This document shows, piece after piece, positions 19,878-35,927 of a stretch of DNA of 35,927 nucleotides (positions are counted from its first letter, which is position 1; each line of letters opens with the position of its first letter). Origin of the DNA: a virus. The position numbers were made by a program, and so were the translations under genes. The DNA is taken from positions 1 to 35,927 of the IMG/VR virus record IMGVR_UViG_3300028812_000010; one strand, written 5' to 3'. The notes under the pieces were generated by a model. It had not been told where the DNA came from, searched no databases, and saw only the letters and a program-made list of their open reading frames with translations.

Positions 19878-19976
19878 TCAAGGTTGCGGCTCTCGGCACT
19901 TCGGACAGTGGGGGACGAACCACCACATGACGTGCCCGCAGGACCAGCACCGCTTGCGCTTGCCGATCTTCGTCAC
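19878..19976 (-). CDS. Mini zinc-ribbon protein
   Basis: A 32-residue protein starting at GTG 19976 in a GTGA overlap with the gene before it; GGAG lies eight bases upstream. It has a basic start (TKIGKRKR) and two knuckles, CWSC and CPKC, separated by 13 residues, making a single four-Cys zinc ribbon. A nucleic-acid or protein contact role is plausible. Coupling to a membrane-protein gene is clear. Confidence 0.6.
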   Translation of the reverse strand: MTKIGKRKRCWSCGHVMWWFVPHCPKCREPQP

Positions 19977-20098
19977 CAGGTGATCTCCGTCACCTCGATG
20001 AACTTGACCACGCCGAGGACGACGAGGGCCAGAACCACCACGGCGGCAACAAGGACGACTGCTGCGGCAGTCCATGACCGGAACATACCCGGCTTCAC
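19973..20098 (-). CDS. Small membrane protein
   Basis: A 41-residue protein starting at GTG 20098 (GTGA overlap, GGAAG upstream); ATG 20086 is an alternative. It is essentially one hydrophobic span of about 24 residues (AAVVLVAAVVVLALVVLGVV) followed by a short acidic end. The function is unknown. It is sandwiched between two zinc-protein genes in the same coupled operon. Confidence 0.55.
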   Translation of the reverse strand: MKPGMFRSWTAAAVVLVAAVVVLALVVLGVVKFIEVTEITW

Positions 20099-20445
20099 GG
20101 CGTTCTTCCGTAGCAGGGGATCAGACAAACCTCGTGGTCGAGCCCCACGAGGTCGTTGAGCACATTGCCGTAGCGCTCCTCGACGTAGCGGAGCACCGTG
20201 GGGTCGCAGCCGATCAGCAGATAGCCGCGCCCCTCGCCGTGGTAGTGGAGCGATGAGAGCCACTGGTGATAGGTGCTCGCGGGCACCTGACGCTCGACGA
20301 AGGTCATCACGCGATCCCACTCCGGATGCCTCACTCCCGGGCAACGGCACTCGTCGCAGCAGGTGTCGCTCGGCCGCATCCAGTTCACGTTACAGACGGG
20401 GCAGCGGACGTCCTCGGGGCGCAACTCCCTCACTACCTCGATCAC
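20095..20445 (-). CDS. Zinc-ribbon / DnaA domain I-like fusion
   Basis: A 116-residue protein starting at GTG 20445, coupled by GTGA to the upstream gene. Residues 15-35 hold six cysteines (CPVC, then CC-x2-C-x-C), a small zinc module. Residues about 42-100 follow the DnaA N-terminal domain pattern: EWDRVMTFVERQVPASTYHQ, WL, a strand pair (GRGYLLIG), then PTVLRYVEERYGNVLNDLV. DnaA domain I binds the replicative helicase and initiation regulators. The AAA+ and DNA-binding domains of DnaA are absent. A role in capturing or blocking host initiation factors is inferred. Confidence 0.7.
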   Translation of the reverse strand: MIEVVRELRPEDVRCPVCNVNWMRPSDTCCDECRCPGVRHPEWDRVMTFVERQVPASTYHQWLSSLHYHGEGRGYLLIGCDPTVLRYVEERYGNVLNDLVGLDHEVCLIPCYGRTP

Positions 20446-20642
20446 CGCTTGTACCGCAGCTCGTCCACTTTGTCGGCGATGTCCGACAGGGAGTAGACGA
20501 TCGCCGAGCCGACGAGCAGCACGACCCGGGCGATGGTAATCATCTGGTTCGACCGCGCCGCGCTCACGATGTTCTGGGCGTCGCGCAGGGCACCGAACGA
20601 GCGCTCGGCGTAGGTGAGGTCCTGCTCTGTCTCAGCGGCCAT
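20442..20642 (-). CDS. Small single-span membrane protein
   Basis: A 66-residue protein with ATG 20642 inside the end of the upstream gene (11-base overlap). An N-terminal charged helix (TEQDLTYAERSFGALRDA) is followed by a span (about 34-52, MITIARVVLLVGSAIVYSL) and a charged tail. It lies between two replication-type genes, so it may help tether replication proteins to the membrane (speculative). Confidence 0.6.
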   Translation of the reverse strand: MAAETEQDLTYAERSFGALRDAQNIVSAARSNQMITIARVVLLVGSAIVYSLSDIADKVDELRYKR

Positions 20643-21036
20643 CGGGAACTCGGATCGCGAGGCGTGAGCCGTACATGGCTGTGAACTCCTTGAGTAGCGG
20701 CGTGTCGGGGCAGGAGAGGACCTCCCGCTGCATGGCGACAGCAACCTTGGGGGAACGGTTGGCGTAGTGGGCGCGCTTGACGACCCACAGCACCTCGTTC
20801 TCTTGGTCGTACCTGACCATCGGCTTTCGTGCCAGCTCATCGAGCGCGTAGCGGACTCGGAGGCTGTCATTGCCGAACAGGCGAGACATCGCCCGCACCG
20901 AGACCTCGTAGATGCCGCTGATCGCGGCCTTGGGATTGGTCCAGCTCCAGAGGAAGAGGAGTTGAGCGTCGGCGGACAGAGCCGCGAAGTCGGGGTCCGT
21001 CCAGATGGCGCACTCGACCATTACGAAGCGACCCAC
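20632..21036 (-). CDS. Winged-helix replisome organiser / helicase-loader-like protein
   Basis: A 134-residue protein starting at GTG 21036 with AGGAG five bases upstream. IWTDPDFAALSADAQLLFLW and ISGIYEVSVRAMSRLF, then a helix and EVLWVVKRAHY, form the winged-helix layout of the N-terminal domain of phage replication proteins of the DnaD/replisome-organiser type. The C-terminal helicase-contact domain is short. It is the first gene after promoter 21063-21092. The DnaA-domain-I fusion two genes downstream supports an initiation role. Confidence 0.65.
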   Translation of the reverse strand: MGRFVMVECAIWTDPDFAALSADAQLLFLWSWTNPKAAISGIYEVSVRAMSRLFGNDSLRVRYALDELARKPMVRYDQENEVLWVVKRAHYANRSPKVAVAMQREVLSCPDTPLLKEFTAMYGSRLAIRVPDGR

Positions 21037-21062: not shown

Positions 21063-21092
21063 ACTATGCGCTCCAAGGGGCGCCTTAGTCAA
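21063..21092 (-). promoter_or_regulatory. Promoter P1, TTGACT-N18-CATAGT, GGCGCC in spacer
   Basis: The -35 (21087-21092) overlaps the RusA stop codon. The spacer is exactly 18 bases and begins AAGGCGCC; the -10 is 21063-21068. Transcription would start near 21056, leaving a short leader with GAGAGAGAGGAG before GTG 21036. Confidence 0.65.
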
Positions 21093-21475
21093 CCATCGGA
21101 GACGAAGAGGTCGACGACCGTACGACCGAGCGGCTTGACCAGCTCGCCATGGATCTCCAGCCCGCCGAAGCGGAACTTGTCGGGCGTGTCGTCGTCCAGG
21201 TAGTTGCCATCAACGAGGGCGTCGCCGAGACACTTCTCAACGATGGAGCGGTAGTTGCCTTCGTCGCGCTTGCGCCGCGCCGGGAACCACATCTCGGCCT
21301 TGGCATAGATCGCCCTGGGGATCTCGGGCGTGTGGACCTTGGGTAGCGGACTCGCCAGCAGGGCCATGCCGAACAGGCCTTGCCACTGTTTCTTCACGCG
21401 CTGGTGCACTCGCCAGTTGCGGTACATGAGCGCGTTCAAGGACGGCGGCGTGCCGTCGAGGTCGAGACGTACCAT
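21089..21475 (-). CDS. RusA-like Holliday junction resolvase
   Basis: A 128-residue protein; ATG 21475 overlaps the upstream TGA, and GTG 21478 immediately before is also possible. The N-terminus (LDGTPPSLNALMYRNWRV) and the acidic core RDEGNYRSIVEKCLGDALVD with YLDDDTP match RusA, whose catalytic acids here would be Asp71, Asp85 and Asp94-96. RusA dimers resolve four-way junctions during recombination and replication. Length is normal. The gene's end carries the -35 of promoter P1. Confidence 0.85.
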   Translation of the reverse strand: MVRLDLDGTPPSLNALMYRNWRVHQRVKKQWQGLFGMALLASPLPKVHTPEIPRAIYAKAEMWFPARRKRDEGNYRSIVEKCLGDALVDGNYLDDDTPDKFRFGGLEIHGELVKPLGRTVVDLFVSDG

Positions 21476-22389: not shown

Positions 22390-22754
22390 GCGACGATCTT
22401 GGGCTCCCGGTTCTCCAGCCGGGGCTGGACGGGGTTGAAGTTGGCGATGGCGGCCAGCGTCGGCATGTGCTCGCCGCCCGCGAGGACCGCAGCGCGGAGC
22501 TGCTCGTTGTCCGCGATCGCGGCAGCCCGAGCGGCAGGCTGTCCACCGATGACCTCGTAGGTGCCGATGACGCGGAGAAGCTCGTCCTCGTCGGTGCGCT
22601 CGCCGACGACCTGCACGACGAGGTACTTCGTCGGCCTGCGCTCTGCACCGACCTGGCGCTTGACGGCCTCGACGGCGGGCGTGTCCTGGGACTGCGCGAT
22701 GGCGTCCTCGATCGAGCCCTTCCGGGTCACGTCGTTCGTGGTGATGGTGTTCAC
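22386..22754 (-). CDS. Hypothetical protein
   Basis: A 122-residue protein starting at GTG 22754 in a GTGA overlap. A Thr-rich N-terminus is followed by a strand (TKYLVVQVVGERTDEDELL), a strand-helix part (GTYEVIGGQPAARAAAIADN) and an Ala-rich helix. The C-terminus is polar (LENREPKIVA). No family was recognised. It is co-transcribed between the OB-fold-like gene and sIHF. Confidence 0.6.
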   Translation of the reverse strand: MNTITTNDVTRKGSIEDAIAQSQDTPAVEAVKRQVGAERRPTKYLVVQVVGERTDEDELLRVIGTYEVIGGQPAARAAAIADNEQLRAAVLAGGEHMPTLAAIANFNPVQPRLENREPKIVA

Positions 22755-23206
22755 TGCGTGGCGCCTCCTTCGGCTTCTTGGACCTGCTTGAACAGGGTCG
22801 CGGCGACGAGCTTGACCTGCGCGGCCACGTCGCCCGCGCTGGGCGGGTGGTACTCGCCGTGGGCCGCTGCGACTTCGAGGATCGTCACCGCGCACTTCTG
22901 GGCGTGCTGCATGGCGATCGAGCGGCGCTCCTCGGGAGGACGCGCTCGACTGCCACCTCCCCCGAAGCCTGCGCCCTGGGCCAGCTTGAACTTGGGGCCG
23001 TACTGCGCCTCAAGATCAATGTCTCCTTCGACGGACTGCCCGACCTGCGGTGCCGGGGACTCCGGCTTCCTCGACCACTCGCAGTTGCGAACCACCTGCC
23101 CCGAGGCGTCCTGTAGATCGACTCGGTAGCCCTTCATCGGGCCGCCCTTCGTCGAGTTCCAGTCCCGAACTTGGTCTGAGACAAGGGTGACTGTATACGT
23201 TGGCAT
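22751..23206 (-). CDS. Possible OB-fold / single-strand DNA-binding protein
   Basis: A 151-residue protein starting at ATG 23206. Residues 1-75 are strand-rich (YTVTLVSDQVRDWNSTKG, YRVDLQDASGQVVRNCEW, SVEGDIDLEAQYGPKFKLAQ), consistent with an OB fold. A Gly-rich basic link and a helical end (RRSIAMQHAQKCAVTILEVA) follow. This architecture is common in phage-encoded ssDNA-binding-like proteins next to recombination genes, as here. There is no classic SSB acidic tip. The gene is preceded by the attenuator-like leader and promoter P2. Confidence 0.5.
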   Translation of the reverse strand: MPTYTVTLVSDQVRDWNSTKGGPMKGYRVDLQDASGQVVRNCEWSRKPESPAPQVGQSVEGDIDLEAQYGPKFKLAQGAGFGGGGSRARPPEERRSIAMQHAQKCAVTILEVAAAHGEYHPPSAGDVAAQVKLVAATLFKQVQEAEGGATQ

Positions 23207-25440: not shown

Positions 25441-25490
25441 AGAACTCCCGCGCCGGGGCCGAAGCCCCGGCGCGTGTCCTGGGGAGTTCT
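25441..25490 (-). terminator. cUUCGg hairpin terminator after the AAA+ gene
   Basis: On the minus strand, eleven perfect GC-rich pairs (25464-25474 with 25449-25459) are closed by a TTCG loop on a C-G pair, the extra-stable cUUCGg form. An outer stem of eight pairs (25483-25490 with 25441-25448) encloses it. It begins at the AAA+ stop codon. No strong U-run follows, which is usual for high-GC hosts. Confidence 0.8.
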
Positions 25491-27039
25491 AGCCCTCGAC
25501 CTTCTTGAGCGAGTCGGAGCCGCCGTTCTCGGTCTTCGTGCGGAAGACCGTGGCGCCGTCCAGCTCCTTGATGTCCACGCCGTCCACGGCGCGGCGCATC
25601 TCGTGCCGCATCGCCGTCCCGAGCGGGTCGGGGATCTTGCCCTCCCCGGCGCCGTTCATCAGGTCGAGCTGGGGACGCAACCCCGACGCCGCGAGCACGA
25701 AGTCCTCGGTCGTCAGCATCAGGTCCTCGACCTCGCCCTCCGAGCGGGAGATCGCGTAGCGCAGGGTCCGGTCGATCGCCTCCTTCACGAACGCCGGGAG
25801 GAAGCCCTCCATGGCCTCGTACACGGCCTCGTAGTCGATGTCCTCGTCGAGCGTGCCCTGGGGCGCCGTCGCCTCGATCATGCGGGTGATGCCCGACAGG
25901 TCGAGCGCCCCGATGTGGATCATCGCGTCGAGGCGGCCGGGGCGCACCATGCCCCGGTGGATGCGCTCCTTGTGGTTCGTCGTGAGCACCAGCATCAGCT
26001 CGGTGCCCTTCGCCGTGATGCCGTCGAACAGGTCGAGCAGCCGGGCCACGGCGTCGCGGTCGCCCGACTCCGCGAGGATGTCCACGTCCTCGAAGAACAC
26101 GATCGCGGGCTGGTAGAGCCTCGCCGTCGCCATGACGGTCGCCAGCGAGTCCCGGGTCGGACGGCAGTAGATGAACGTCCAGCCGTTCGGCACCGCGACC
26201 TGCGCGGTGAGGAACGCGCCGAGCGTCTTGCCCGTGCCGTACGGCCCCTCCAGCAACACGGCGCGCTTGCGCGGGATGTTCATCCTGCGCATGACGTCCG
26301 TGTGCCTGATGACCGACCAGAGGTTCGCGTCCAACTGCGCGAGCACCTCGTCCGAGTAGACGACCTTGCGCGGGTCGACGCCCGACAGGTCGAGGAACTC
26401 CGCGTCCTCCTGCCCGTCGATCGCCTGGCCCTTGTAGATCGACTCCGACTCCAGCGTCTGCTGGACGACCCGGAAGAGGCCCTCGATGTGCGCCCGGTAC
26501 TTCCGGGGCGCGTCGACGGTCAGGACGAACAGCTGGCCCAGCTCGTTGTCCTCGGACACGCCGAGGAACATCTTGCCCCCGAACAGCGGGACGGCCAACT
26601 GCCCCCACGGGACCTGCATGGTCTCGGTCGGGCCGACGTTGATGGCGCGCATCTCCGGCGGCTTCTTGCCGAAGAACGTCCAGGTCGGCTTGCCGATCCC
26701 GGCCGTGCCGAACACCTTGATGAGGGACTTCTGCACGGCGGACGCACCGTCCCAGGGACGGAACTTGTACGTCCGCGTGAAGCGGGTCTCCTCCTCCTGC
26801 TGCTCGATGTGGTCCTCCAGGTACCGAATCGCGTCGACCGGCGACATGGTGGCGGGGAGCACCAGCTGGTTGCCCTGCTGGATCAGCGAGTCGTCCGTGA
26901 TCCGCTGGCCGCCCAACGCCGCGAGCGTGTCGAGCAGGTTGTCCTCCAACACCTGCTGCTCGGTCTTCTCGGGCGCGACGGCGATCCCCACGTTCGAGGA
27001 GCCCTTCCTGTCCTTGCGCTGCACTGCCTTATTAGCCAC
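25489..27039 (-). CDS. AAA+ ATPase (FtsH/Cdc48-like core)
   Basis: A 516-residue protein. GTG 27039 is preferred, five bases after AGGAGG. The N-terminal about 230 residues are a separate domain without a known motif. The AAA+ module has Walker A GPYGTGKT (265-272), Walker B IVFFEDVD (about 313-320), sensor TTNH (about 353-356) and a second-region-of-homology RPGRLD (about 366-371), most like the classic AAA clade. No protease or helicase domain is attached. The substrate is unknown: remodelling of host or phage complexes is inferred. It has its own strong terminator. Confidence 0.8.
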   Translation of the reverse strand: MANKAVQRKDRKGSSNVGIAVAPEKTEQQVLEDNLLDTLAALGGQRITDDSLIQQGNQLVLPATMSPVDAIRYLEDHIEQQEEETRFTRTYKFRPWDGASAVQKSLIKVFGTAGIGKPTWTFFGKKPPEMRAINVGPTETMQVPWGQLAVPLFGGKMFLGVSEDNELGQLFVLTVDAPRKYRAHIEGLFRVVQQTLESESIYKGQAIDGQEDAEFLDLSGVDPRKVVYSDEVLAQLDANLWSVIRHTDVMRRMNIPRKRAVLLEGPYGTGKTLGAFLTAQVAVPNGWTFIYCRPTRDSLATVMATARLYQPAIVFFEDVDILAESGDRDAVARLLDLFDGITAKGTELMLVLTTNHKERIHRGMVRPGRLDAMIHIGALDLSGITRMIEATAPQGTLDEDIDYEAVYEAMEGFLPAFVKEAIDRTLRYAISRSEGEVEDLMLTTEDFVLAASGLRPQLDLMNGAGEGKIPDPLGTAMRHEMRRAVDGVDIKELDGATVFRTKTENGGSDSLKKVEG

Positions 27040-27052
27040 TTGCACCTCCTAC

Positions 27053-29320: not shown

Positions 29321-29701
29321 CCGACCGAGCCGGATCTTCTTCCCCACGACCCGGCCTCGCCTGTGCGGCCAGCCGAGCGAGTAGGTCACGTAGCGCCTGC
29401 CCCAGACCCACGAGTAGGAGCATGACGGCGACCAGAAGTCGAGGTCGGACCCCCAGCCGATGCGGTCGCGCACGGTGAACCGCTTGCGGCCCAAGAAGGA
29501 CGTGTTGCGCAGGTAGATGCGCGTCCCCAGCGGGTGCCGGTTCGAGGCGACCGAGCCGAAGCGCACGTAGCTGCCGTCGGCCATGATCGTGCCTGCCGAG
29601 CAGAGTGAGTACGAGGTCGACATGGCGCCGAACTTCGCGACCGCAGACGACGGGGCCGCCGCGAGCGCGGCGGCCCCGAGTGCAACCAACTTCACCTTCA
29701 C
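29297..29701 (-). CDS. Secreted 3D-domain protein
   Basis: A 134-residue protein; GTG 29701 follows AGGAGG by five bases. Residues 1-22 are a signal peptide (VKVKLVALGAAALAAAPSSA, cleavage near AVA-KF). The rest matches the 3D/double-psi pattern of RlpA and MltA-type proteins: MADGSYVRFGSVASNRHPLG, TRIYL, FTVRDRIGWGSDLDFW and a closing GRRYVTYSLG. Such domains act on or bind peptidoglycan. It is expressed from the early strand, away from the lysis cassette, so a role in envelope remodelling or superinfection control is possible (inference). Confidence 0.75.
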   Translation of the reverse strand: MKVKLVALGAAALAAAPSSAVAKFGAMSTSYSLCSAGTIMADGSYVRFGSVASNRHPLGTRIYLRNTSFLGRKRFTVRDRIGWGSDLDFWSPSCSYSWVWGRRYVTYSLGWPHRRGRVVGKKIRLGRLTHKAPR

Positions 29702-29721
29702 GAAGTCCTCCTGTGGACGAG

Positions 29722-30267
29722 TTACACCTGGCCGAGGTGCGGCAGGTCGAAGTCGGTCTGCGGGCGAGCCGGGTACGCCCTGAGCCTGAAGCCCGCCGCG
29801 TCGCCCATCAGGAACATCGCCGTGGCGATCACGCGATCCGTCACCGGGATCGAGTTGACCGTCTTCGGGTAGGCGCAGAACGACTGGGTGCGGGTCTGCA
29901 CCGCGTAGGAGATTTTCCTCGCGGTGATGCGGTACAGCAGCGAGTCGCTGCCGACCACCGTGATCTCCTGCGTGCGCAGGTAGTCCTCGAACTGGCGCTC
30001 GTTCACCAGCTCTTGGAGCAACGACACGGCCTTGATCTCGGCGTTGTTCGACTGGCCCGGGTACGCCTGGTTCGGGTAGCAAATCGCGCAGCGGGCGTTG
30101 CCACACCCAGCCGAGCGATCCCTGTAGGGCGTAGCGAGATACGGCCAGTTGATGGCTTTGAGCCGCTCCTCGATCGGGAGCAGCGTCTTGTCGCGGTCGG
30201 GGAGCATCTGTTCGGCCCGCCACAGGGGCGCGGCCGACGCCGCGCCCCTGTAGAGGAAGTTCGCCAT
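29722..30267 (-). CDS. Hypothetical protein with CxxC cluster
   Basis: A 181-residue protein with ATG 30267 directly after the upstream TAG. CGNARCAICYPNQAYPG (about 55-71) gives three closely spaced cysteines, suggesting a metal site. A mixed alpha-beta domain follows (AEIKAVSLLQELVNERQFED, ITVVGSDSLLYRITARKISY). The C-terminal third carries a hydrophobic helix (DRVIATAMFLMGDAAG). No family was recognised. Confidence 0.6.
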   Translation of the reverse strand: MANFLYRGAASAAPLWRAEQMLPDRDKTLLPIEERLKAINWPYLATPYRDRSAGCGNARCAICYPNQAYPGQSNNAEIKAVSLLQELVNERQFEDYLRTQEITVVGSDSLLYRITARKISYAVQTRTQSFCAYPKTVNSIPVTDRVIATAMFLMGDAAGFRLRAYPARPQTDFDLPHLGQV

Positions 30268-30492
30268 CTAGCCGCCCTGGAACGCCGGGACGATGAGGAC
30301 GTTCGGGTGCTCGCCCGGCTTGTAGTCGCCCCGGGCGATCCGCTCCTTCGACTCCTGGTTGAAGACCATCGAGCGGTTGTTGAACGCCCGCTGGACGATC
30401 GCCTCGGCCTCGCGCACGGCCATGTCGGACTCGGTGTCGATCTCCACGACCGAGTGCCCGGACGAGTCCAGGGTCTTGATCCTCGCGATCAT
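30268..30492 (-). CDS. Small hypothetical protein
   Basis: A 74-residue protein with CAGGAGGCAGC before ATG 30492. Pattern: strand (MIARIKTLDSSGHSVVEID), helix (MAVREAEAIVQRAFNNRSM), strand (NVLIVPAFQGG). A helix start such as AEAIVQRAF suggests a small alpha-beta fold. No function is known. It follows the hairpin at 30529-30555. Confidence 0.6.
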   Translation of the reverse strand: MIARIKTLDSSGHSVVEIDTESDMAVREAEAIVQRAFNNRSMVFNQESKERIARGDYKPGEHPNVLIVPAFQGG

Positions 30493-30528
30493 GCTGCCTC
30501 CTGCATGGTTGCTACGGACAACGACACA

Positions 30529-30555
30529 CGCCCCTGGCTCGCACTGCCAGGGGCG
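30529..30555 (-). terminator. Perfect 10-pair GC hairpin
   Basis: CGCCCCTGGC (30529-30538) pairs with GCCAGGGGCG (30546-30555) around a seven-base loop. It lies between two minus-strand genes and is followed only by a mixed T-rich stretch, so it is a terminator or processing signal typical of high-GC genomes. Confidence 0.6.
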
Positions 30556-30566
30556 CTCCCTTCTGA

Positions 30567-30653
30567 CTACTCCCAGACCGGGATCGGCGGCCCCAAGGGC
30601 TCAGGCCGACGACGCGGCGGCGGGTCGTACTACGTACCGACCGGAGGCGTCAT
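30567..30653 (-). pseudogene. Small Pro-rich ORF with an internal TAG
   Basis: After a strong AGAAAGGAGAGGT site, ATG 30653 starts MTPPVGT, then TAG (30630-30632), then continues in frame for 20 codons, YDPPPRRRPEPLGPPIPVWE, to a second TAG. The part beyond the stop looks protein-like, and the ribosome site is excellent. Either a small gene was broken by an amber codon, or the codon is read through. Only a seven-residue peptide is made otherwise. Confidence 0.4.
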
Positions 30654-30695
30654 ACCTCTCCTTTCTGGTCTCGCGGTGGACAGGGACATCGGGGG

Positions 30696-30938
30696 CTACT
30701 TGCGGACGACGATCCTGTCGCCGTTGTTGAAGCCGAGCCCGGACTCCACGATCACGACGTTGGAGTCCTGGATGGTGTACTTCACGTTGCCCTTCGGCTG
30801 CCCGCGCTTGGACAAGACCTGGACGATCAGGTCCGGGTCGTTGAGCCCGTGCATGAAGGCGTAGATCGTGGGCGACTCGTCGTCCTCGCCCAACTCGAAC
30901 GTGTGGACCGCCTTGTTGGCGGTGCTCTCATCGGCCAT
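30696..30938 (-). CDS. Small hypothetical acidic protein
   Basis: An 80-residue protein with CAGGAGGCAGG before ATG 30938. It contains strands and a turn (ESPTIYAFMHGLNDPDLIVQ, GNVKYTIQDSNVVIVESGLG) and ends GDRIVVRK. It is probably a small beta fold. It follows tRNA gene 30975-31045 in the same direction. No function was recognised. Confidence 0.6.
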   Translation of the reverse strand: MADESTANKAVHTFELGEDDESPTIYAFMHGLNDPDLIVQVLSKRGQPKGNVKYTIQDSNVVIVESGLGFNNGDRIVVRK

Positions 30939-30974
30939 GCGTCCTGCCTCCTGTTGTGGGTTGTGGGGGGAAAG

Positions 30975-31045
30975 TCCCGGGGCCAGGGGTCGAACCTGAG
31001 CTACGACCTACACCGGGTCGCGTGCTGCCTCTACACCACCCCGGG
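30975..31045 (-). tRNA. tRNA with Gln-type D arm; loop lacks U33
   Basis: A 71-base cloverleaf. Acceptor CCCGGGG/CCCCGGG with discriminator A; T8; a D arm like tRNA-Gln (GGTGTA...GGCAGCAC); anticodon stem CGACC/GGTCG (five perfect pairs) around loop CGGTGTA; T arm with TTCGACC loop. By position the anticodon would be GTG (His), but base 33 is G instead of the invariant U and base 37 is T. Identity is therefore uncertain. CCA is not encoded. Promoter P6 ends about ten bases upstream. Confidence 0.7.
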
Positions 31046-31055
31046 ACATGCCGCT

Positions 31056-31085
31056 GCTAGACGAGCACCCCGGCGCCCTGGTCAA
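31056..31085 (-). promoter_or_regulatory. Promoter P6, TTGACC-N18-TCTAGC, GGCGCC in spacer
   Basis: The -35 is 31080-31085 and the -10 is 31056-31061, containing the TAG stop of the upstream gene. The 18-base spacer begins AGGGCGCC. The -10 is weak (3 of 6), but a start near 31049 would be only about four bases before the tRNA 5' end. Confidence 0.45.
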
Positions 31086-31446
31086 GGCGCTGCAGGGCCT
31101 CGTCACGGCGCCTCTCGGCGTCGCGCAGCAGGCTCTCGATGCGCGAGGCAGCCTCGCGCTCGGCGTGGTCGAGCTGCGTCCGCAGCTCCTGCACGTTGGC
31201 GTTGATCGCGTTCATGGTCGCCGCCGCGTCGTACGCCTTCTCCAGCTCCTCCTTGAGCTGGCGCTTGAAGGGCTTGACCTTGTGCGACTTCGCCTCGGCG
31301 TAGCGACGGACGAACGCGACGCGGCTCATCTCCTTCTTGGCACCGTTCGCGGTCAGGTAGATCCCGATCCCCGTCGTGCTCTCGTTCGCGGGCCTGCCGT
31401 TCTCACCGACCGGCTCCATCACGACGTCCCACGTCGTATGTGCCAC
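31057..31446 (-). CDS. Coiled-coil hypothetical protein
   Basis: A 129-residue protein starting at GTG 31446 (TAGTG overlap with the upstream stop). The N-terminal half is alpha-beta (GIGIYLTANGAKKEMSRVAF). The second half is a long coiled coil (KRQLKEELEKAYDAAATMNA, LRTQLDHAEREAASRIESLL) to the end. No function was recognised. The last codons form the -35 and spacer of P6. Confidence 0.6.
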   Translation of the reverse strand: MAHTTWDVVMEPVGENGRPANESTTGIGIYLTANGAKKEMSRVAFVRRYAEAKSHKVKPFKRQLKEELEKAYDAAATMNAINANVQELRTQLDHAEREAASRIESLLRDAERRRDEALQRLDQGAGVLV

Positions 31447-32030
31447 TACTCCAGCTCCTTTCCGTCAGGCATGAACACCCGTCGCCGCACGCTTCGGTTG
31501 CGTGCGTAACGGATTGTGCTCCACGTGCCTTGCCCGCGACCGGGCTGCGGCTCGTACAGCTCCTTGGGCGTGCCGACGAGCACGGTGCTCGCCTGAACGA
31601 TGTCCTTGTTGCGGTCGAGATACGGCTTCGCCTGCTCGACTCGGATAGCTCCCTGGCACCACGCACGCTGCTTGGCGTCGCTCGGGGGATGGATCACAAC
31701 GTCCACGCCCTCTCGCCGAGCAAGCTCGTGGAACTGCTCGTCGGCGCCGATGCAGTCGCCGTGATGCGCCTCGTCGGCGCCTCGCAGCGCCTCGCGCACC
31801 AGCGACTTCTGCTGGGGCGTCATGCCGGAGCGCGTGCCCGTGAACCCCACGATCACACGCACCGTCGGACGCTTCCTGCTGTCCTTCACTTCCTGCACAC
31901 GTCTCCTCTCGCTCGGAGTGAGCGAGTCGCGGGCAAGCCACTGAGCGACCCAGAGATCGGGCGCTTGCTCCAGCGCACGACGCTTCTTCGGCACCTGCTC
32001 CGGTGCATCGCCCAAGTCCTCCTTGCTCAT
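31446..32030 (-). CDS. SLOG/DprA-like Rossmann protein
   Basis: A 194-residue protein with ATG 32030. A charged helical start (1-55) is followed by a Rossmann-like core: VGFTGTRSGMT (61-71), GDCIGADEQFH (91-101), DVVIHPP, RNKDIV (140-145), TVLVGTP and RGQGTWSTIRYA (165-176). This is the nucleotide-binding layout of the SLOG superfamily (DprA/LOG-like). Such proteins sense nucleotides, bind DNA or act in defence and counter-defence. The specific ligand is unknown. It is read from promoter P4 with an almost leaderless start. Confidence 0.7.
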   Translation of the reverse strand: MSKEDLGDAPEQVPKKRRALEQAPDLWVAQWLARDSLTPSERRRVQEVKDSRKRPTVRVIVGFTGTRSGMTPQQKSLVREALRGADEAHHGDCIGADEQFHELARREGVDVVIHPPSDAKQRAWCQGAIRVEQAKPYLDRNKDIVQASTVLVGTPKELYEPQPGRGQGTWSTIRYARNRSVRRRVFMPDGKELE

Positions 32031-32045
32031 GCTCTCTCAACTCGG

Positions 32046-32075
32046 AGCATGACAGTTTGGGCGCCTAAAAGTCAA
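32046..32075 (-). promoter_or_regulatory. Promoter P4, TTGACT-N18-CATGCT, GGCGCC in spacer
   Basis: The -35 is 32070-32075 and the -10 is 32046-32051; the 18-base spacer holds GGCGCC within a near-palindrome of T and A ends. CCGAGTTGAGAGAGC then leads straight into ATG 32030, so the leader is only about ten bases. Confidence 0.65.
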
Positions 32076-32088
32076 CACACATGGCATA

Positions 32089-32161
32089 GACCGGGGGCAG
32101 GAGTCGAACCCGCATTTCCCAGGTAGAGGTGGGCGTCCTGTCCGCTTTAGACGACCCCGGT
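32089..32161 (-). tRNA. tRNA with Glu-type D arm, irregular anticodon arm
   Basis: A 73-base cloverleaf. Acceptor ACCGGGG/CCCCGGT with discriminator C; canonical D arm (GTCT/GGAC, GG in loop) of the tRNA-Glu style; T arm GCGGG/CCTGC. The anticodon arm is one base short: CCCA/TGGG closes an eight-base loop CCTCTACC. Read by U33 the anticodon would be CTA (amber); read as a Glu tRNA it would be CTC with C33. It cannot be settled by eye. No encoded CCA. Confidence 0.65.
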
Positions 32162-32171
32162 ACGTACATCA

Positions 32172-32245
32172 GACCCGGGGAGGGGATCGAACCCTCGTTT
32201 CTCTGATGAAGGAGTGAGCGTCCTAGCCAACTAGACGACCCGGGT
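32172..32245 (-). tRNA. tRNA with Glu-type D arm, poorly paired anticodon stem
   Basis: A 74-base cloverleaf. Acceptor ACCCGGG/CCCGGGT, discriminator C, Glu-style D arm and T arm GAGGG/CCCTC are normal. The anticodon stem keeps only about three pairs (CTC/GAG), either with two inner mismatches or with an eight-base loop CTTCATCA. Candidate anticodons are TTC (Glu), TCA or CAT, depending on the register. It lies directly after the gene 32250-32435. Confidence 0.65.
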
Positions 32246-32249
32246 ACGT

Positions 32250-32435
32250 TCATTTCGGTTCTTCTTCCGGCTCCACCCACACGTCGATGGTCACGCTCTT
32301 GGGAAAGCCCAAGTGCTGCCACAGGCCCCGAGGCAGGTACAAGATCGCCTCGTTCTCGACGCCGATGAATGTGGCGAAGCGTCGCGTGGTGTCCTTCTTG
32401 TCCAGCAAGAAGCCGACTACTTTTGTCTCTTCCAC
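32250..32435 (-). CDS. Small hypothetical protein
   Basis: A 61-residue protein starting at GTG 32435, with GGAG five bases upstream and a 19-base overlap with the preceding gene. Pattern: VEETKVVGFLLDKKDTTRRF, then ATFIGVENEAILYLPRGLWQ, then VTIDVWVEPEEEPK; a small beta barrel is likely. No function was recognised. Two tRNA genes follow. Confidence 0.6.
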   Translation of the reverse strand: MEETKVVGFLLDKKDTTRRFATFIGVENEAILYLPRGLWQHLGFPKSVTIDVWVEPEEEPK

Positions 32436-32908
32436 TTGGGCTCCTTGTGCGCCTTGGACTTCTGGGCGTCCTTGCGCTTCTGGATTGCTTCCTGATGACG
32501 CTGGTACGCCAGCTCGTTCATCCGCATCCGGTGCCCCTCGCCCGGCTTCGATCCAGCGCGACGACGGTCCTTGTCGGAGCGGATGCGCACCGGCATCCCC
32601 CTGTTGCGAGGCGCGAGGGAGTAACAGCCCGGAGTCACTTCCGGCTTCCACTCGGGCGCCCATGTGCGGAAGTGCTCGCGGGGACCGGACGGGAGCTTGA
32701 TCCAGCGATACATCGCCTCTTCCGGTCCGGCCCCGTTGAGCCTGATGCCCGTGTCCTCGATCATTTCGTGCCACAGGCCCGCCTTGATGAAGCGTTCCGC
32801 GAGCTGCGGGTGAATCGCCATCACCTCGGCGATCTCCGACGGAGTGAAGGCACGCAGCCAGCGCACCCACTGACGGAACTCTGCGTAGTTCGGGCCTGCA
32901 ATAGGCAC
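32417..32908 (-). CDS. Hypothetical protein
   Basis: A 163-residue protein starting at GTG 32908 (TAGTG overlap). Residues 1-55 contain helices that look like a helix-turn-helix (FTPSEIAEVMAIHPQLAERF), followed by GLWHEMIEDTGIRLNG. The C-terminal third is very basic (RHQEAIQKRKDAQKSKAHKE). DNA binding is plausible. Its family is not recognised. Confidence 0.6.
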   Translation of the reverse strand: MPIAGPNYAEFRQWVRWLRAFTPSEIAEVMAIHPQLAERFIKAGLWHEMIEDTGIRLNGAGPEEAMYRWIKLPSGPREHFRTWAPEWKPEVTPGCYSLAPRNRGMPVRIRSDKDRRRAGSKPGEGHRMRMNELAYQRHQEAIQKRKDAQKSKAHKEPKWKRQK

Positions 32909-34386
32909 TAGACCTCCAGCCCCTGCCTGCGCAGGCGCGTACGGTCGTTCAACACGGTCCGAGAGGAGCTAGGCGTGTGCGCGATCTGGACACGCTTGCC
33001 CTCCCACTTCACGTCGATGTGGCCGTTCGAGGCCATCTCGACTCCTGCGCCTGCTCGGATCGCGTCCTGCACGAGGGCGCGCACCTGCGCGTCCTTGATC
33101 GTGATGGAGCGGCCCGTGCCCTCTGCGGGGCGACCGCGCTGCGCTTGGCCCTTGACTTCGGGGCGACCTGCCGCCCGCTCCTCGGCCTTGCGCACATGCT
33201 CCGGCTTGATGCGGGAGAAGATCCGCATGTCGTCGCTCGGCGAATCATCGGCGAGCACGCCCCGCTGAACGAAACGCTCCAGCACCGACAGCACCTGGTC
33301 CTTGGGTAGCTTCGCCCCCTCGGCCACTTGCTGCGGACTGAAGGCGTCGCCGTACTCGCGATTCGCCTCGATCCACACAACCATCTGCTGCGCGGGTGAG
33401 AGTGCCTCACGGTCGACGGGCGCCGGTTCAGGCGCCCGCTCCTCGACTGCCGGAGCGGGCGCTGCTGGGGCGTCGGGGAATGCCTCCCCGATCGTCTTGC
33501 CGGTCCAGCGGTACTTCGAGCCACGAGCGTGGCCCTCGTTCCACTCAAGGAAGCCGAGCCGGATCAACTGCTCGATCCGATCCTTCAGCTTGTGCTCCGA
33601 GATACCAGGCAGCTTGTCCCGCAGCTCGCTGACCGACCACCACTCACGTGGTCGAGCGATCCTCGTGACGGCCATGGCGACATCCACCGCGAACGGCGGC
33701 TGCTCCTCGTACTGCGGCTTCGCCGCAGGCGGCTTTGCCGACTTCGACTCGGGCGTTGGCGCGAGACTCCACGTGTTCGTGCGCCCCACGCCTGCCTCGT
33801 TCTGCACCACCAAGCCGTCCGCAGCCAGCTTCCTGATCGGCTTGCGAATGCTCTCGGGATGAGCCCCGACCGCAGTCGCAACGTCCTGGATGGTCGACTC
33901 GCCGCCGTTGCCGGGCGTCTGGAAATACTCCAGAACCCGCTCGGTCAGCGACTTCTCCGTTGCCCCGTCTGCGGGGCGCTGCGGTTCGGCCTCGGGCTGC
34001 TTCGCCTCCGGGGCAGTCGCCTGCTCCAGAAGCTGCTGAGCCTCGTCGCGCTCGCGCTCCAGCTCCGCTGTACGCCGCAGCGCGGTGTCCAGGTTCCCCA
34101 GAGCCTCGTCCCGCTGTTTGACTACAGCCAGACGCCGGGACTCGGCCTCTTCGGCCTTGTTCCGGAACGCGACTACCTTGCTCTTCGCGGCCTCCAACTC
34201 CTCGCGCAACTCGTCGAGGTCTGCATCCATCGAGACGGCGTGCAGCTCCTCGCCGGTCAGCGCGAGATATGCGGCGCGCAACTTCCCCAGCTCGTCCTGC
34301 TCACGGATCAACCACTCGTGACGAGCCTTGATCGCCAGAGCCTGCTGCTGGATGAAGTCAACGCCGCTTACGTCCACTTCTGCCAC
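32908..34386 (-). CDS. Coiled-coil plus three winged-helix modules
   Basis: A 492-residue protein; GTG 34386 follows GAGGAGG. Residues about 15-130 are a long coiled coil. Three winged-helix-like modules follow: about 145-208 (STIQDVATAVGAHPESIRKP), about 232-300 (WWSVSELRDKLPGISEHKLK) and about 328-400 (FSPQQVAEGAKLPKDQVLSV), separated by Pro/Ala/Glu linkers. The last 65 residues (GVEMASNGHIDVKWEGKRVQ, then IAHTPSSSRTVLNDRTRLRR) resemble a small HicA-like nucleic-acid-binding fold. It probably coordinates DNA or controls transcription; no enzyme motif is seen. Confidence 0.65.
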   Translation of the reverse strand: MAEVDVSGVDFIQQQALAIKARHEWLIREQDELGKLRAAYLALTGEELHAVSMDADLDELREELEAAKSKVVAFRNKAEEAESRRLAVVKQRDEALGNLDTALRRTAELERERDEAQQLLEQATAPEAKQPEAEPQRPADGATEKSLTERVLEYFQTPGNGGESTIQDVATAVGAHPESIRKPIRKLAADGLVVQNEAGVGRTNTWSLAPTPESKSAKPPAAKPQYEEQPPFAVDVAMAVTRIARPREWWSVSELRDKLPGISEHKLKDRIEQLIRLGFLEWNEGHARGSKYRWTGKTIGEAFPDAPAAPAPAVEERAPEPAPVDREALSPAQQMVVWIEANREYGDAFSPQQVAEGAKLPKDQVLSVLERFVQRGVLADDSPSDDMRIFSRIKPEHVRKAEERAAGRPEVKGQAQRGRPAEGTGRSITIKDAQVRALVQDAIRAGAGVEMASNGHIDVKWEGKRVQIAHTPSSSRTVLNDRTRLRRQGLEV

Positions 34387-34684
34387 TTTTCACCTCCTCT
34401 CCTGTGCGTCGGGAACCGAGCTTTGTGCCGGTTCCGGGTGGAAGGACGCGCCAGAGAGCGCGCCCCACGCTTCGGGCGTGCAACAGGGTCTCGTACTGGC
34501 ATTCCAAGACCGGCTCGTAGGAGTACACGTCGCCGTCTCGGAAGCTCACGTAGAGCGTTCCGTGCACCACACTCTTGTGACCACGCTGCTGGTCGATGAA
34601 GCCCTTGCCCTCGAAGCACAGGGCGTTGACTGCGGTCGATTCGACTCGCACCCAGTTGTAACGGTGTGGACGATCTGTCGTCAC
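34358..34684 (-). CDS. KTSC-domain protein
   Basis: A 108-residue protein starting at GTG 34684; no Shine-Dalgarno sequence precedes it because a tRNA-like element lies there. Residues about 12-82 fit the KTSC domain: VRVESTAVNALCFEG, then TLYVSFRDGDVYSYEPVLEC, then a helix (YETLLHARSVGRALWRVL). KTSC domains occur in phages and in host RNA-related proteins, function unclear. A basic tail overlaps the next gene by 29 bases. Confidence 0.65.
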   Translation of the reverse strand: MTTDRPHRYNWVRVESTAVNALCFEGKGFIDQQRGHKSVVHGTLYVSFRDGDVYSYEPVLECQYETLLHARSVGRALWRVLPPGTGTKLGSRRTGEEVKSGRSGRKRR

Positions 34685-34688
34685 CTAA

Positions 34689-34737
34689 TGCGGAGCACGG
34701 GGATCGAACCCGTCAACTGCGCCCAACGCCGCTCCAC
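34689..34737 (-). ncRNA. Truncated tRNA-like element in a leader
   Basis: Seven acceptor pairs (GTGGAGC with GCTCCGC), discriminator A, and a normal T arm (ACGGG-TTCGATC-CCCGT) are present. Only 17 bases lie between the 5' acceptor strand and the T arm, so no room exists for D and anticodon arms; a 3-4 pair hairpin fits there. It sits between promoter P5 and the KTSC start, so it forms most of that mRNA leader. It could also be a tRNA 3'-end attachment core. Confidence 0.5.
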
Positions 34738-34758
34738 ATGCGCTCTCTCTCACTACGG

Positions 34759-34788
34759 AGCATGAGCGCCGTACTGCCTCTCTGTCAA
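34759..34788 (-). promoter_or_regulatory. Promoter P5, TTGACA-N18-CATGCT
   Basis: Perfect -35 TTGACA (34783-34788) and -10 CATGCT (34759-34764), with an 18-base spacer ending ACGGCGCT. Downstream comes CCGTAGTGAGAGAGAGCGC. It lies just after a stop codon and would transcribe the tRNA-like element and the KTSC operon. Confidence 0.65.
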
Positions 34789-34789
34789 C

Positions 34790-34852
34790 CTACCCCTGCG
34801 CGCTGATCCTGGGCTCGCTCGACCGATACGGCCCCCGCTGGTGGTCGGTCAT
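34790..34852 (-). CDS. Mini-protein with EPRISAQG end
   Basis: A 20-residue ORF starting at ATG 34852, overlapping the upstream stop as ATGA, ending at TAG 34790-34792. It reads MTDHQRGPYR then SSEPRISAQG. The last eight residues nearly repeat the end of the protein at 34996-35148 (EPRTSAQG), and the DNA repeats too, so it is a partial duplication or a remnant gene. Confidence 0.45.
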   Translation of the reverse strand: MTDHQRGPYRSSEPRISAQG

Positions 34853-34983
34853 CGCCCAATCACCCGCTTCCACCGGCGCACCGCGACACGGCGCACGTAG
34901 GGGTCGTAACGACGCTGCCACGCGGAGCGCGTCCACCGCAACGCCCACTTGATCTGTCGCGCCTTGCGTCCGAAAAGACCCAT
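34849..34983 (-). CDS. Small, very basic protein
   Basis: A 44-residue ORF from ATG 34983 to TGA 34849-34851. It starts MGLFGRKARQIKWALRWTRS and continues with Arg and Trp through to RWKRVIGR. About a third of residues are Arg or Lys, in an amphipathic helix pattern. Nucleic-acid binding or membrane activity is plausible. Its ribosome site is weak (GGGCGG), but the frame is closed at both ends by coupled neighbours. Confidence 0.5.
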   Translation of the reverse strand: MGLFGRKARQIKWALRWTRSAWQRRYDPYVRRVAVRRWKRVIGR

Positions 34984-34995
34984 TACGGCGCCGCC

Positions 34996-35148
34996 CTACC
35001 CCTGCGCGCTGGTCCTGGGCTCGCCGGGAATCGCGTGGCGCTGCTCCAGCGCGCTGGCGATGCGCTCCAGGCTCTCGGCGATCGACGCGAGCGACGAGGC
35101 GATGCGGCCCAGATTGCGGTAGGCCTCGATCTCGTAGCCGGTAGGCAC
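34996..35148 (-). CDS. Small amphipathic-helix protein
   Basis: A 50-residue protein starting at GTG 35148 (TAGTG overlap). The core NLGRIASSLASIAESLERIA is a heptad repeat with Leu/Ile every three to four residues, so it should form a helix bundle or coiled coil. It ends EPRTSAQG, nearly repeated in the mini-protein 200 bases downstream. Confidence 0.55.
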   Translation of the reverse strand: MPTGYEIEAYRNLGRIASSLASIAESLERIASALEQRHAIPGEPRTSAQG

Positions 35149-35540
35149 TACCCGGCGTCCTCGTCCTCGGCGTCCCGCGTCACGTCGATGGTCGCGGTCC
35201 AGTCCCACAGCTCGCTGGGGATGCGCACGGCGTCCATCTTCGGGGTGCCGTCCATTGCGTCCACGAAGTGGCAGAAGTGGTCGCGGCCGAGCCAGCCCTC
35301 GATGATCGCCATCACGCGGGTGTCGTTGAACTTGAGCGGCGCGACGGTCAGGACGTGGTAGCCGTGGATGCCCGAGGAGCAGCGCTCGGCCTCGTCGGCG
35401 GGCTCGCAGAGCTGGATCGTCGAGATCGGCGTGGCCTCGATGCGCACCGAGTCCGGGAGCAACTCGTAGTCCCGGTCGGAGAGCATGTCCACGAAGTAGG
35501 CGACCTGCTCCTGGACCGCCTCGGGTGCTGCGTTGGGCAT
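35148..35540 (-). CDS. Hypothetical protein
   Basis: A 130-residue protein with AAGGAGGCAGTA before ATG 35540. It starts with a helix (EAVQEQVAYFVDMLSDRDYE), then strands (SVRIEATPISTIQLCEP, HGYHVLTVAPLKFNDT) and a helix (VMAIIEGWLGRDHFCHFVDA), ending in an acidic tail. No family was recognised. Confidence 0.6.
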   Translation of the reverse strand: MPNAAPEAVQEQVAYFVDMLSDRDYELLPDSVRIEATPISTIQLCEPADEAERCSSGIHGYHVLTVAPLKFNDTRVMAIIEGWLGRDHFCHFVDAMDGTPKMDAVRIPSELWDWTATIDVTRDAEDEDAG

Positions 35541-35574
35541 TACTGCCTCCTTGTTGGCAAGAGCGCGGATTCGC

Positions 35575-35639
35575 TCTCGCAGGGCGCCGGAGTTGCCCCC
35601 CCAGGCAACGGCGTTACCGCTCCCCGACGCCCTGCGAGA
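35575..35639 (-). other. Large structured leader, 12-pair closing stem
   Basis: A perfect 12-pair inverted repeat (35575-35586 with 35628-35639) encloses about 41 bases that contain a second hairpin (35592-35597 with 35604-35609, six pairs, C-run/G-run loop). A third possible stem (GGCGT/ACGCC) competes with the outer one. It lies 35 bases before ATG 35540, followed by another six-pair hairpin (AGAGCG/CGCTCT). Confidence 0.6.
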
Positions 35640-35655
35640 AGAACCACGCGCAGAA

Positions 35656-35682
35656 GCGCGAGGGAGACAAGCTCCCCCGCGC
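35656..35682 (-). terminator. GC hairpin after the right-edge gene
   Basis: GCGCG-a-GGGAG (35656-35666) pairs with CTCCC-c-CGCGC (35672-35682), eleven positions with one mismatch and a five-base loop. It comes 14 bases after the stop of the partial gene and is followed by TTCT, so it is a probable terminator. Confidence 0.6.
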
Positions 35683-35696
35683 TGCCTGCGTGTCGG

Positions 35697-35927
35697 TCAG
35701 GACTTCTTGCGACCCGACTGCTTCGGCGCCTCCTCCTTCGTCTCGTCCGACGACGGGGTGTCGGACTCGTCGGTACTGCTCGCCTCGCCCTCGCCCTCGA
35801 CGGGCTCCGGCTCGGGCTCGGGCGCCGGGGGCTGCGCGTCGTGCTGGGCGATGATCGCCGCGACCTTCCGGGGCCAGAAGCGCCGCGCCTGCGACTCCCC
35901 CGCGCCCGGCGTCTGCGCCGTCTCGAT
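35697..35927 (-). CDS. C-terminal part of a WPRKVAA protein (partial)
   Basis: The last 76 codons of a gene whose start lies beyond the window. The visible start is a linker (ETAQTPGAGESQA), then RRFWPRKVAAIIAQHDAQ, then an acidic, Pro/Glu/Ser-rich disordered tail ending in SGRKKS. The core closely matches residues about 142-160 of the protein at 28707-29228 (ESRRIWPRKVAAMVLALHEQ). The function is unknown. Confidence 0.65.
   Translation of the reverse strand: METAQTPGAGESQARRFWPRKVAAIIAQHDAQPPAPEPEPEPVEGEGEASSTDESDTPSSDETKEEAPKQSGRKKS

Follow-up and report, generated by a model that had tools for sequence, protein, structure and literature searches.

We report here a small phage protein that joins a six-cysteine, zinc-ribbon-like N terminus to a C-terminal domain resembling domain I of the bacterial initiator DnaA. 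Sequence profiles and the predicted fold, taken together, settle the identity of this domain as DnaA domain I-like. The protein could well form, with a second phage protein, a two-piece replication initiator in which it recruits the helicase; it would then be a DnaA domain I-like adaptor with a zinc-ribbon-like tip. We put this forward tentatively, as a reading that falls somewhat short of probable.

The gene and its product

The gene was found in the IMG/VR virus record IMGVR_UViG_3300028812_000010, of which positions 1 to 35,927 were analyzed; this whole stretch of 35,927 nucleotides is called the window below. It lies on the minus strand (20445-20095), starts with GTG and encodes 116 amino acids.

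20095..20445, minus strand: target gene, with a six-Cys (zinc-ribbon-like) N terminus and a DnaA domain I-like C-terminal domain (based on the ORF, its coding composition, PF11638 and hhalign)
20341..20403, minus strand: Cys-rich segment, residues 15-35, CPVC-x11-CDEC with the additional C29 and C35
20116..20325, minus strand: DnaA domain I-like (KH-like) domain, residues 41-110 (based on sequence profiles, models and fold searches)

The ORF is a genuine coding gene. Its GC content by codon position (0.65/0.44/0.87) resembles that of the rest of the phage genes (0.64-0.66/0.40-0.45/0.84-0.98). The start codon, GTG, overlaps the stop codon of the upstream 66-codon gene. The same intact ORF is present in a near-identical twin record, with 99% identity across all 116 residues.

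The N terminus contains six cysteines (C15, C18, C29, C30, C33 and C35), all within residues 15-35; a six-cysteine N terminus had been described in an earlier reading made from the sequence alone. Their CxxC-x11-CxxC spacing suggests that this part of the protein binds zinc. A PDB sequence search returned no convincing match for the Cys-rich segment (best E 0.64). A similar layout of cysteines occurs in the window just downstream of the target gene, where a short ORF nearly repeats it:

19878..19976, minus strand: zinc-ribbon-like ORF, 32 aa, CWSC-x10-CPKC (from sequence, within ORF 19878-20075)

This 32-aa ORF may be a source of the Cys module of the target protein.

A domain resembling DnaA domain I

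Residues 43-99 of the target protein match positions 4-62 of the 65 positions of DnaA_N (PF11638) with an E value of 5.7e-4 and a score of 20.0 bits, which falls below the curated cut-off of 24.6 bits. DnaA_N is the sole Pfam family detected for the protein at E ≤ 10, and in a search of the whole record with PF11638 the target is the sole match (E 1.5e-5). In a pairwise phmmer comparison with E. coli DnaA (2e0g), 58 columns align without a gap, yet the E value of this alignment alone is 1.5. Comparison by hhalign with a set of seven DnaA domain I sequences, comprising six DnaA proteins and one phage initiator, gave a probability of 90 and a P value of 1.7e-6. An HMM built from this set ranked the target first among 8,367 ORFs (15.5 bits, against 7.1 for the next), and in a control with 5,000 shuffled sequences the best score was 7.3 against 16.8 for the target, so that none reached it. 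The gap was narrow with an HMM of 27 sequences, mostly of DnaA from one small-genome phylum, which gave the target 10.7 bits and the next ORF 9.9 bits.

A search with PF11638 across 78 bacterial genomes also yielded, in genome G106, a match of 21.5 bits that looked like a phage-type relative; it is a C39-peptidase-like protein and evidently a false positive. Because a false positive reached this score, the Pfam score of the target is insufficient alone, and the sequence score taken by itself is suggestive. The sequence-only reading had placed a DnaA N-terminal pattern at residues of about 42-100. This placement holds up, with the PF11638 match at 43-99, the hhalign P value of 1.7e-6 and shuffled sequences scoring far below the target; the profile-profile match, whose absence that reading had named as a refutation, is thus significant. 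Its statement that the ATPase and DNA-binding domains are absent is also borne out: Pfam detects neither an AAA+ domain III nor a Bac_DnaA_C domain IV in the 116-aa protein, and DnaA_N is its only Pfam match.

We built an AlphaFold2 model of residues 37-116 without any DnaA sequence (pLDDT 67.4). A full-length model generated without an alignment had a pLDDT of 42.7 and was treated merely as a hint; the confidence of the models is thus low to moderate. The predicted elements are helix 41-53, helix 56-64, strand 67-71, strand 74-79, helix 82-100 and strand 105-110; this predicted α-α-β-β-α-β order is that of DnaA domain I. In Foldseek searches of the PDB with either model, places 1-5 were all taken by DnaA domain I chains, from Bacillus subtilis (4tps), E. 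coli (2e0g) and Helicobacter pylori (2wp0), and the best match of the domain-only model had an E value of 8.1e-4 and a probability of 1.00. DciA bound to DnaB followed at rank 6 with the domain-only model, and tau domain V came 34th when the full-length model was used. The α-α-β-β-α fold, a departure from which had likewise been named as a refutation, is accordingly the one predicted, and its five nearest matches are DnaA domain I.

VIA-align 2 also placed a DnaA chain first (4tps_B, Z 7.7, rmsd 3.5, 75 residues), with the next match at Z 6.9; ribosomal S3-type KH domains lie within about 1 Z unit of 4tps_B. KH scores are too close for VIA-align 2 to serve as the sole discriminator between DnaA domain I and KH domains. 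The fold class of the target is therefore firm, and its exact family rests on sequence together with Foldseek.

The target shares with DnaA domain I its length, the predicted order of elements and a gap-free alignment to the E. coli protein. It differs from DnaA in the lack of the AAA+ and DNA-binding domains and in the six-Cys segment that precedes the domain. On these grounds, what the sequence-only reading had observed in the target gene is confirmed.

In the gap-free alignment, W6 and W25 of E. coli DnaA correspond to W43 and W62 of the target. P18-A19, L29 and Y55 are also kept, and F22 and W50 are replaced by Tyr. Three further positions are changed in the alignment with E. coli DnaA: E21 to T58, N44 to D81 and F46 to T83. 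In E. coli DnaA, W6 is the dimerization Trp of domain I, E21 and F46 contact DnaB, and N44 and F46, among others, contact DiaA (PMC5448010).

Replication genes around the target gene

The target gene lies in a run of replication genes on the same strand.

21089..21475, minus strand: RusA-like Holliday junction resolvase, encoded upstream within this run (PHROG 34, E 2.7e-7)
20632..21036, minus strand: replisome organizer-like winged-helix protein, 134 aa (PHROG 1701, DnaD-like helicase loader, E 9.8e-12)
20442..20642, minus strand: predicted membrane protein, 66 aa, between the organizer and target genes (TM segment read from the sequence)
19973..20086, minus strand: one-TM peptide, 37 aa (MFRSWTAAAVV...), directly downstream of the target gene (internal ATG of ORF 19973-20350)

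The start of the 66-aa gene overlaps the stop of the organizer gene, and its stop overlaps the start of the target gene. The target had been described as standing next to a replisome organizer-like gene; such a gene is indeed located close upstream, but it is not adjacent, as the 66-codon gene intervenes.

The organizer is unusually short. It covers only positions 1-129 of the 323 positions of phrog_1701. A search for its relatives with a four-sequence alignment gave 80 loci, of which 77 with complete frames were compared. These relatives have lengths of 212-483 aa (median 255), against 134 aa for the protein of the window, which is alone among the 78 in consisting of a winged helix without a C-terminal region. 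No trace of a frameshifted organizer tail was detected in any frame of the following genes. The organizer belongs with the DnaD-like and replisome organizer loaders (phrog_1701, phrog_6251), which differ in having a further C-terminal region, some 100 aa or more in length; this region is absent here, and the target protein is unrelated to it.

Neither the window nor the twin record gave a match to DnaB_C at E ≤ 10, and a scan of the window for Walker A motifs picked out a single ORF, that of an AAA protein. A DnaB-type helicase was thus detected in neither record of this phage, both of which are genome fragments. Among the records of organizer relatives, 4 of 34 contain a DnaB_C match, so the absence of a helicase is not special to the phage of the window. 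In annotated relatives of the organizer (Geobacillus virus E2, Tenacibaculum phage JQ and Escherichia phage LMessi), a helicase gene adjoins the organizer gene or is one small gene away from it.

A possible role in helicase recruitment

Phages without a replicative helicase of their own must capture that of the host. Known routes of capture involve AAA+ loaders such as DnaC/DnaI, lambda P and DnaD-like proteins. In the arrangement that we tentatively favor, the winged-helix organizer encoded two genes upstream of the target would bind the phage origin. The Cys-rich tip would tether the target protein to the organizer or to DNA, and the target would make contact with the host's DnaB-type helicase, or with its DnaA/DciA handlers, and deliver the helicase to the phage origin once this is open. 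For the target protein, the binding of zinc, an interaction with the organizer, helicase contact and a role in phage DNA replication are all inferred. Capture of the host helicase or inhibition of host initiation, the functions proposed in the sequence-only reading, are plausible.

A phage protein found elsewhere combines both parts. When viral proteins were searched by structure, the target's second match was a 'replicon initiation protein' of phage SecTim467, and the third was an uncultured phage protein named as containing a DnaA N-terminal domain. The SecTim467 initiator (L060:1472-2512; phrog_26369) contains, at residues 62-110, a winged helix of the HTH_36 family and, at residues 273-330, a DnaA_N match with 37.6 bits, which is above the cut-off. 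Since both are present in this protein, phages do join a winged-helix initiator to DnaA domain I. The protein is annotated merely as a putative replicon initiation protein. The initiator of Brevibacillus phages SecTim467 and Jenst (phrog_26369) is likewise a pairing of winged helix and DnaA_N; however, it is one protein of 347 aa, in which an O-like winged helix (HTH_36) is followed by DnaA_N, whereas in the window the two are separate genes, the winged helix is of a different family and a Cys-rich tip is present.

The proposed function gains support from the winged-helix-only organizer, the lack of a detectable DnaB and the fused winged-helix and DnaA_N initiator found elsewhere. It is weakened by the replacement of the DnaB/DiaA contacts E21, N44 and F46 by T58, D81 and T83. 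According to a review, contact between domain I and the helicase had been demonstrated in E. coli only, and H. pylori DnaA likewise lacks F46 (PMC5448010). The loss of E21 and F46 in the target is therefore compatible with helicase contact.

We consider it possible, but rather doubtful, that the target goes as far as to be a zinc-tipped stand-alone DnaA domain I used in trans as a helicase-docking module that completes a winged-helix-only initiator. If so, initiation in this phage would be split and modular, and the domain with which the host initiator contacts the helicase would have become a phage part in its own right. Acting in trans, a small DnaA domain I of this kind would add another route of helicase capture, and the target would serve as a compact reagent for studying the role of domain I in bacteria beyond E. 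coli.

DciA (DUF721, PF05258) shares a KH-like fold with the target (Foldseek rank 6), but Pfam does not match the target to DciA at E ≤ 10, and the target lacks a DciA-type C-terminal tail. DciA is a KH-like helicase operator and needs no ATPase. DnaA domain I, KH-like helicase handlers and phage initiators with DnaA_N are already known. The novelty lies in the stand-alone domain I-like form with a Cys-rich tip, paired with a winged-helix-only organizer, in a single phage so far.

A different use of the same domain would be as a decoy in host takeover, in which the target pairs with host DnaA through the conserved W6-type face, or occupies host regulators, and blocks initiation on the host chromosome to the benefit of phage DNA. 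The dimerization Trp is kept (W6 as W43), as is W25 (as W62), and the target sits among short early-type genes. There is also a precedent for a prophage protein acting at DnaA domain I in YfdR of the cryptic prophage CPS-53 (PMC5448010), although this phage-borne factor is described as binding domain I, whereas the target resembles it. The Trp residues belong to the core of the family as well, however, and their retention is no proof of a shared interface; the surface formed by E21, N44 and F46, with which DiaA, DnaB and YfdR interact, is not kept. The run of replication genes and the fused SecTim467 initiator point to initiation instead, and we regard the decoy as unlikely.

Less likely still is that the target binds RNA or single-stranded DNA through a KH-like domain with a zinc ribbon, its likeness to DnaA reflecting a shared fold and not a common function. 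Such a binder would agree with the position of S3-type KH domains within about 1 Z unit of 4tps_B in VIA-align 2, with the frequent binding of nucleic acid by zinc ribbons and with the PF11638 false positive at 21.5 bits. With both models, however, Foldseek ranks DnaA domain I at places 1-5, above the KH chains; the profile points independently to DnaA_N, with no KH family detected in Pfam at E ≤ 10; and the signature Trp/Tyr pattern aligns without gaps. That the gene is a fragment of host dnaA, decayed or acquired laterally and without current function, as the low match score and the survival of a domain I-like sequence alone might suggest, is very improbable. Against it stand the unbroken reading frame, a coding composition typical of the phage, the overlap of its start with the preceding stop, the added Cys-rich module, the intact ORF with 99% identity over 116 residues in the twin record, and a distance too great for recent capture (best tblastn DnaA match 25% identity, E 0.8).

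Distribution and genome context

Among viral contigs, the only homologue of the whole target protein is that in the near-identical twin record, and none was found among genome contigs. A tblastn search of phage and plasmid records gave nothing of weight, the top plasmid match being Priestia DnaA (E 0.8). Two DNA patterns based on the Cys and Trp residues matched at least 155 stretches, none of them a relative with a meaningful E value. PF11638 had no match outside the window in 39 records sharing the AAA protein or the Cys pattern and in 4 further records, and no DnaA_N was found in 47 records of organizer relatives. The target hit no PHROG family; phrog_34489, of 94 aa and unknown function, was reached with a DnaA query (E 0.035) and may be a stand-alone relative.

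DnaA boxes with at most one mismatch show no excess in the window (10, against 11.8 expected), and no iterons were found near the organizer gene. Cumulative GC skew peaks at about 20000-21000, at the junction between the structural genes, which run rightward, and the early genes, which run leftward; the direction of transcription alone may explain this peak.

The twin record, IMGVR_UViG_3300028587_000017, is 99.96-99.99% identical to the window over the compared stretches. It continues the genome for about 9.9 kb beyond the left end of the window (L061, 29400-39327) and lacks window positions 29473-35927. As each covers sequence absent from the other, the two are fragments, their common genome measures at least 45 kb, and genes may be missing from both together. 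The extra stretch of the twin holds frames that, read by eye, are terminase- and portal-like.

Three further genes of the window were noted:

22751..23206, minus strand: 151-aa protein, OB-fold single-strand-binding-like by eye, with no Pfam or PHROG match
25489..27045, minus strand: AAA ATPase, phrog_10440, of unknown function
32908..34386, minus strand: 492-aa protein, several stretches of which resemble winged helices (HTH_20; weak TrmB, MarR and DnaD_N; phrog_345, O-like, E 7e-7)

The 492-aa protein is a second candidate replication or regulatory protein, judged from these matches. The AAA ATPase is shared, at 43-52% identity, with other phages (L005-L007), which have no other tested early gene in common with the window, and with a contig (L046) from the MAG of a small-genome bacterium. 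The capsid protein gave 207 weak matches, which are spread over phages of Streptomyces, Vibrio, Rhodobacter, Rhizobium and others.
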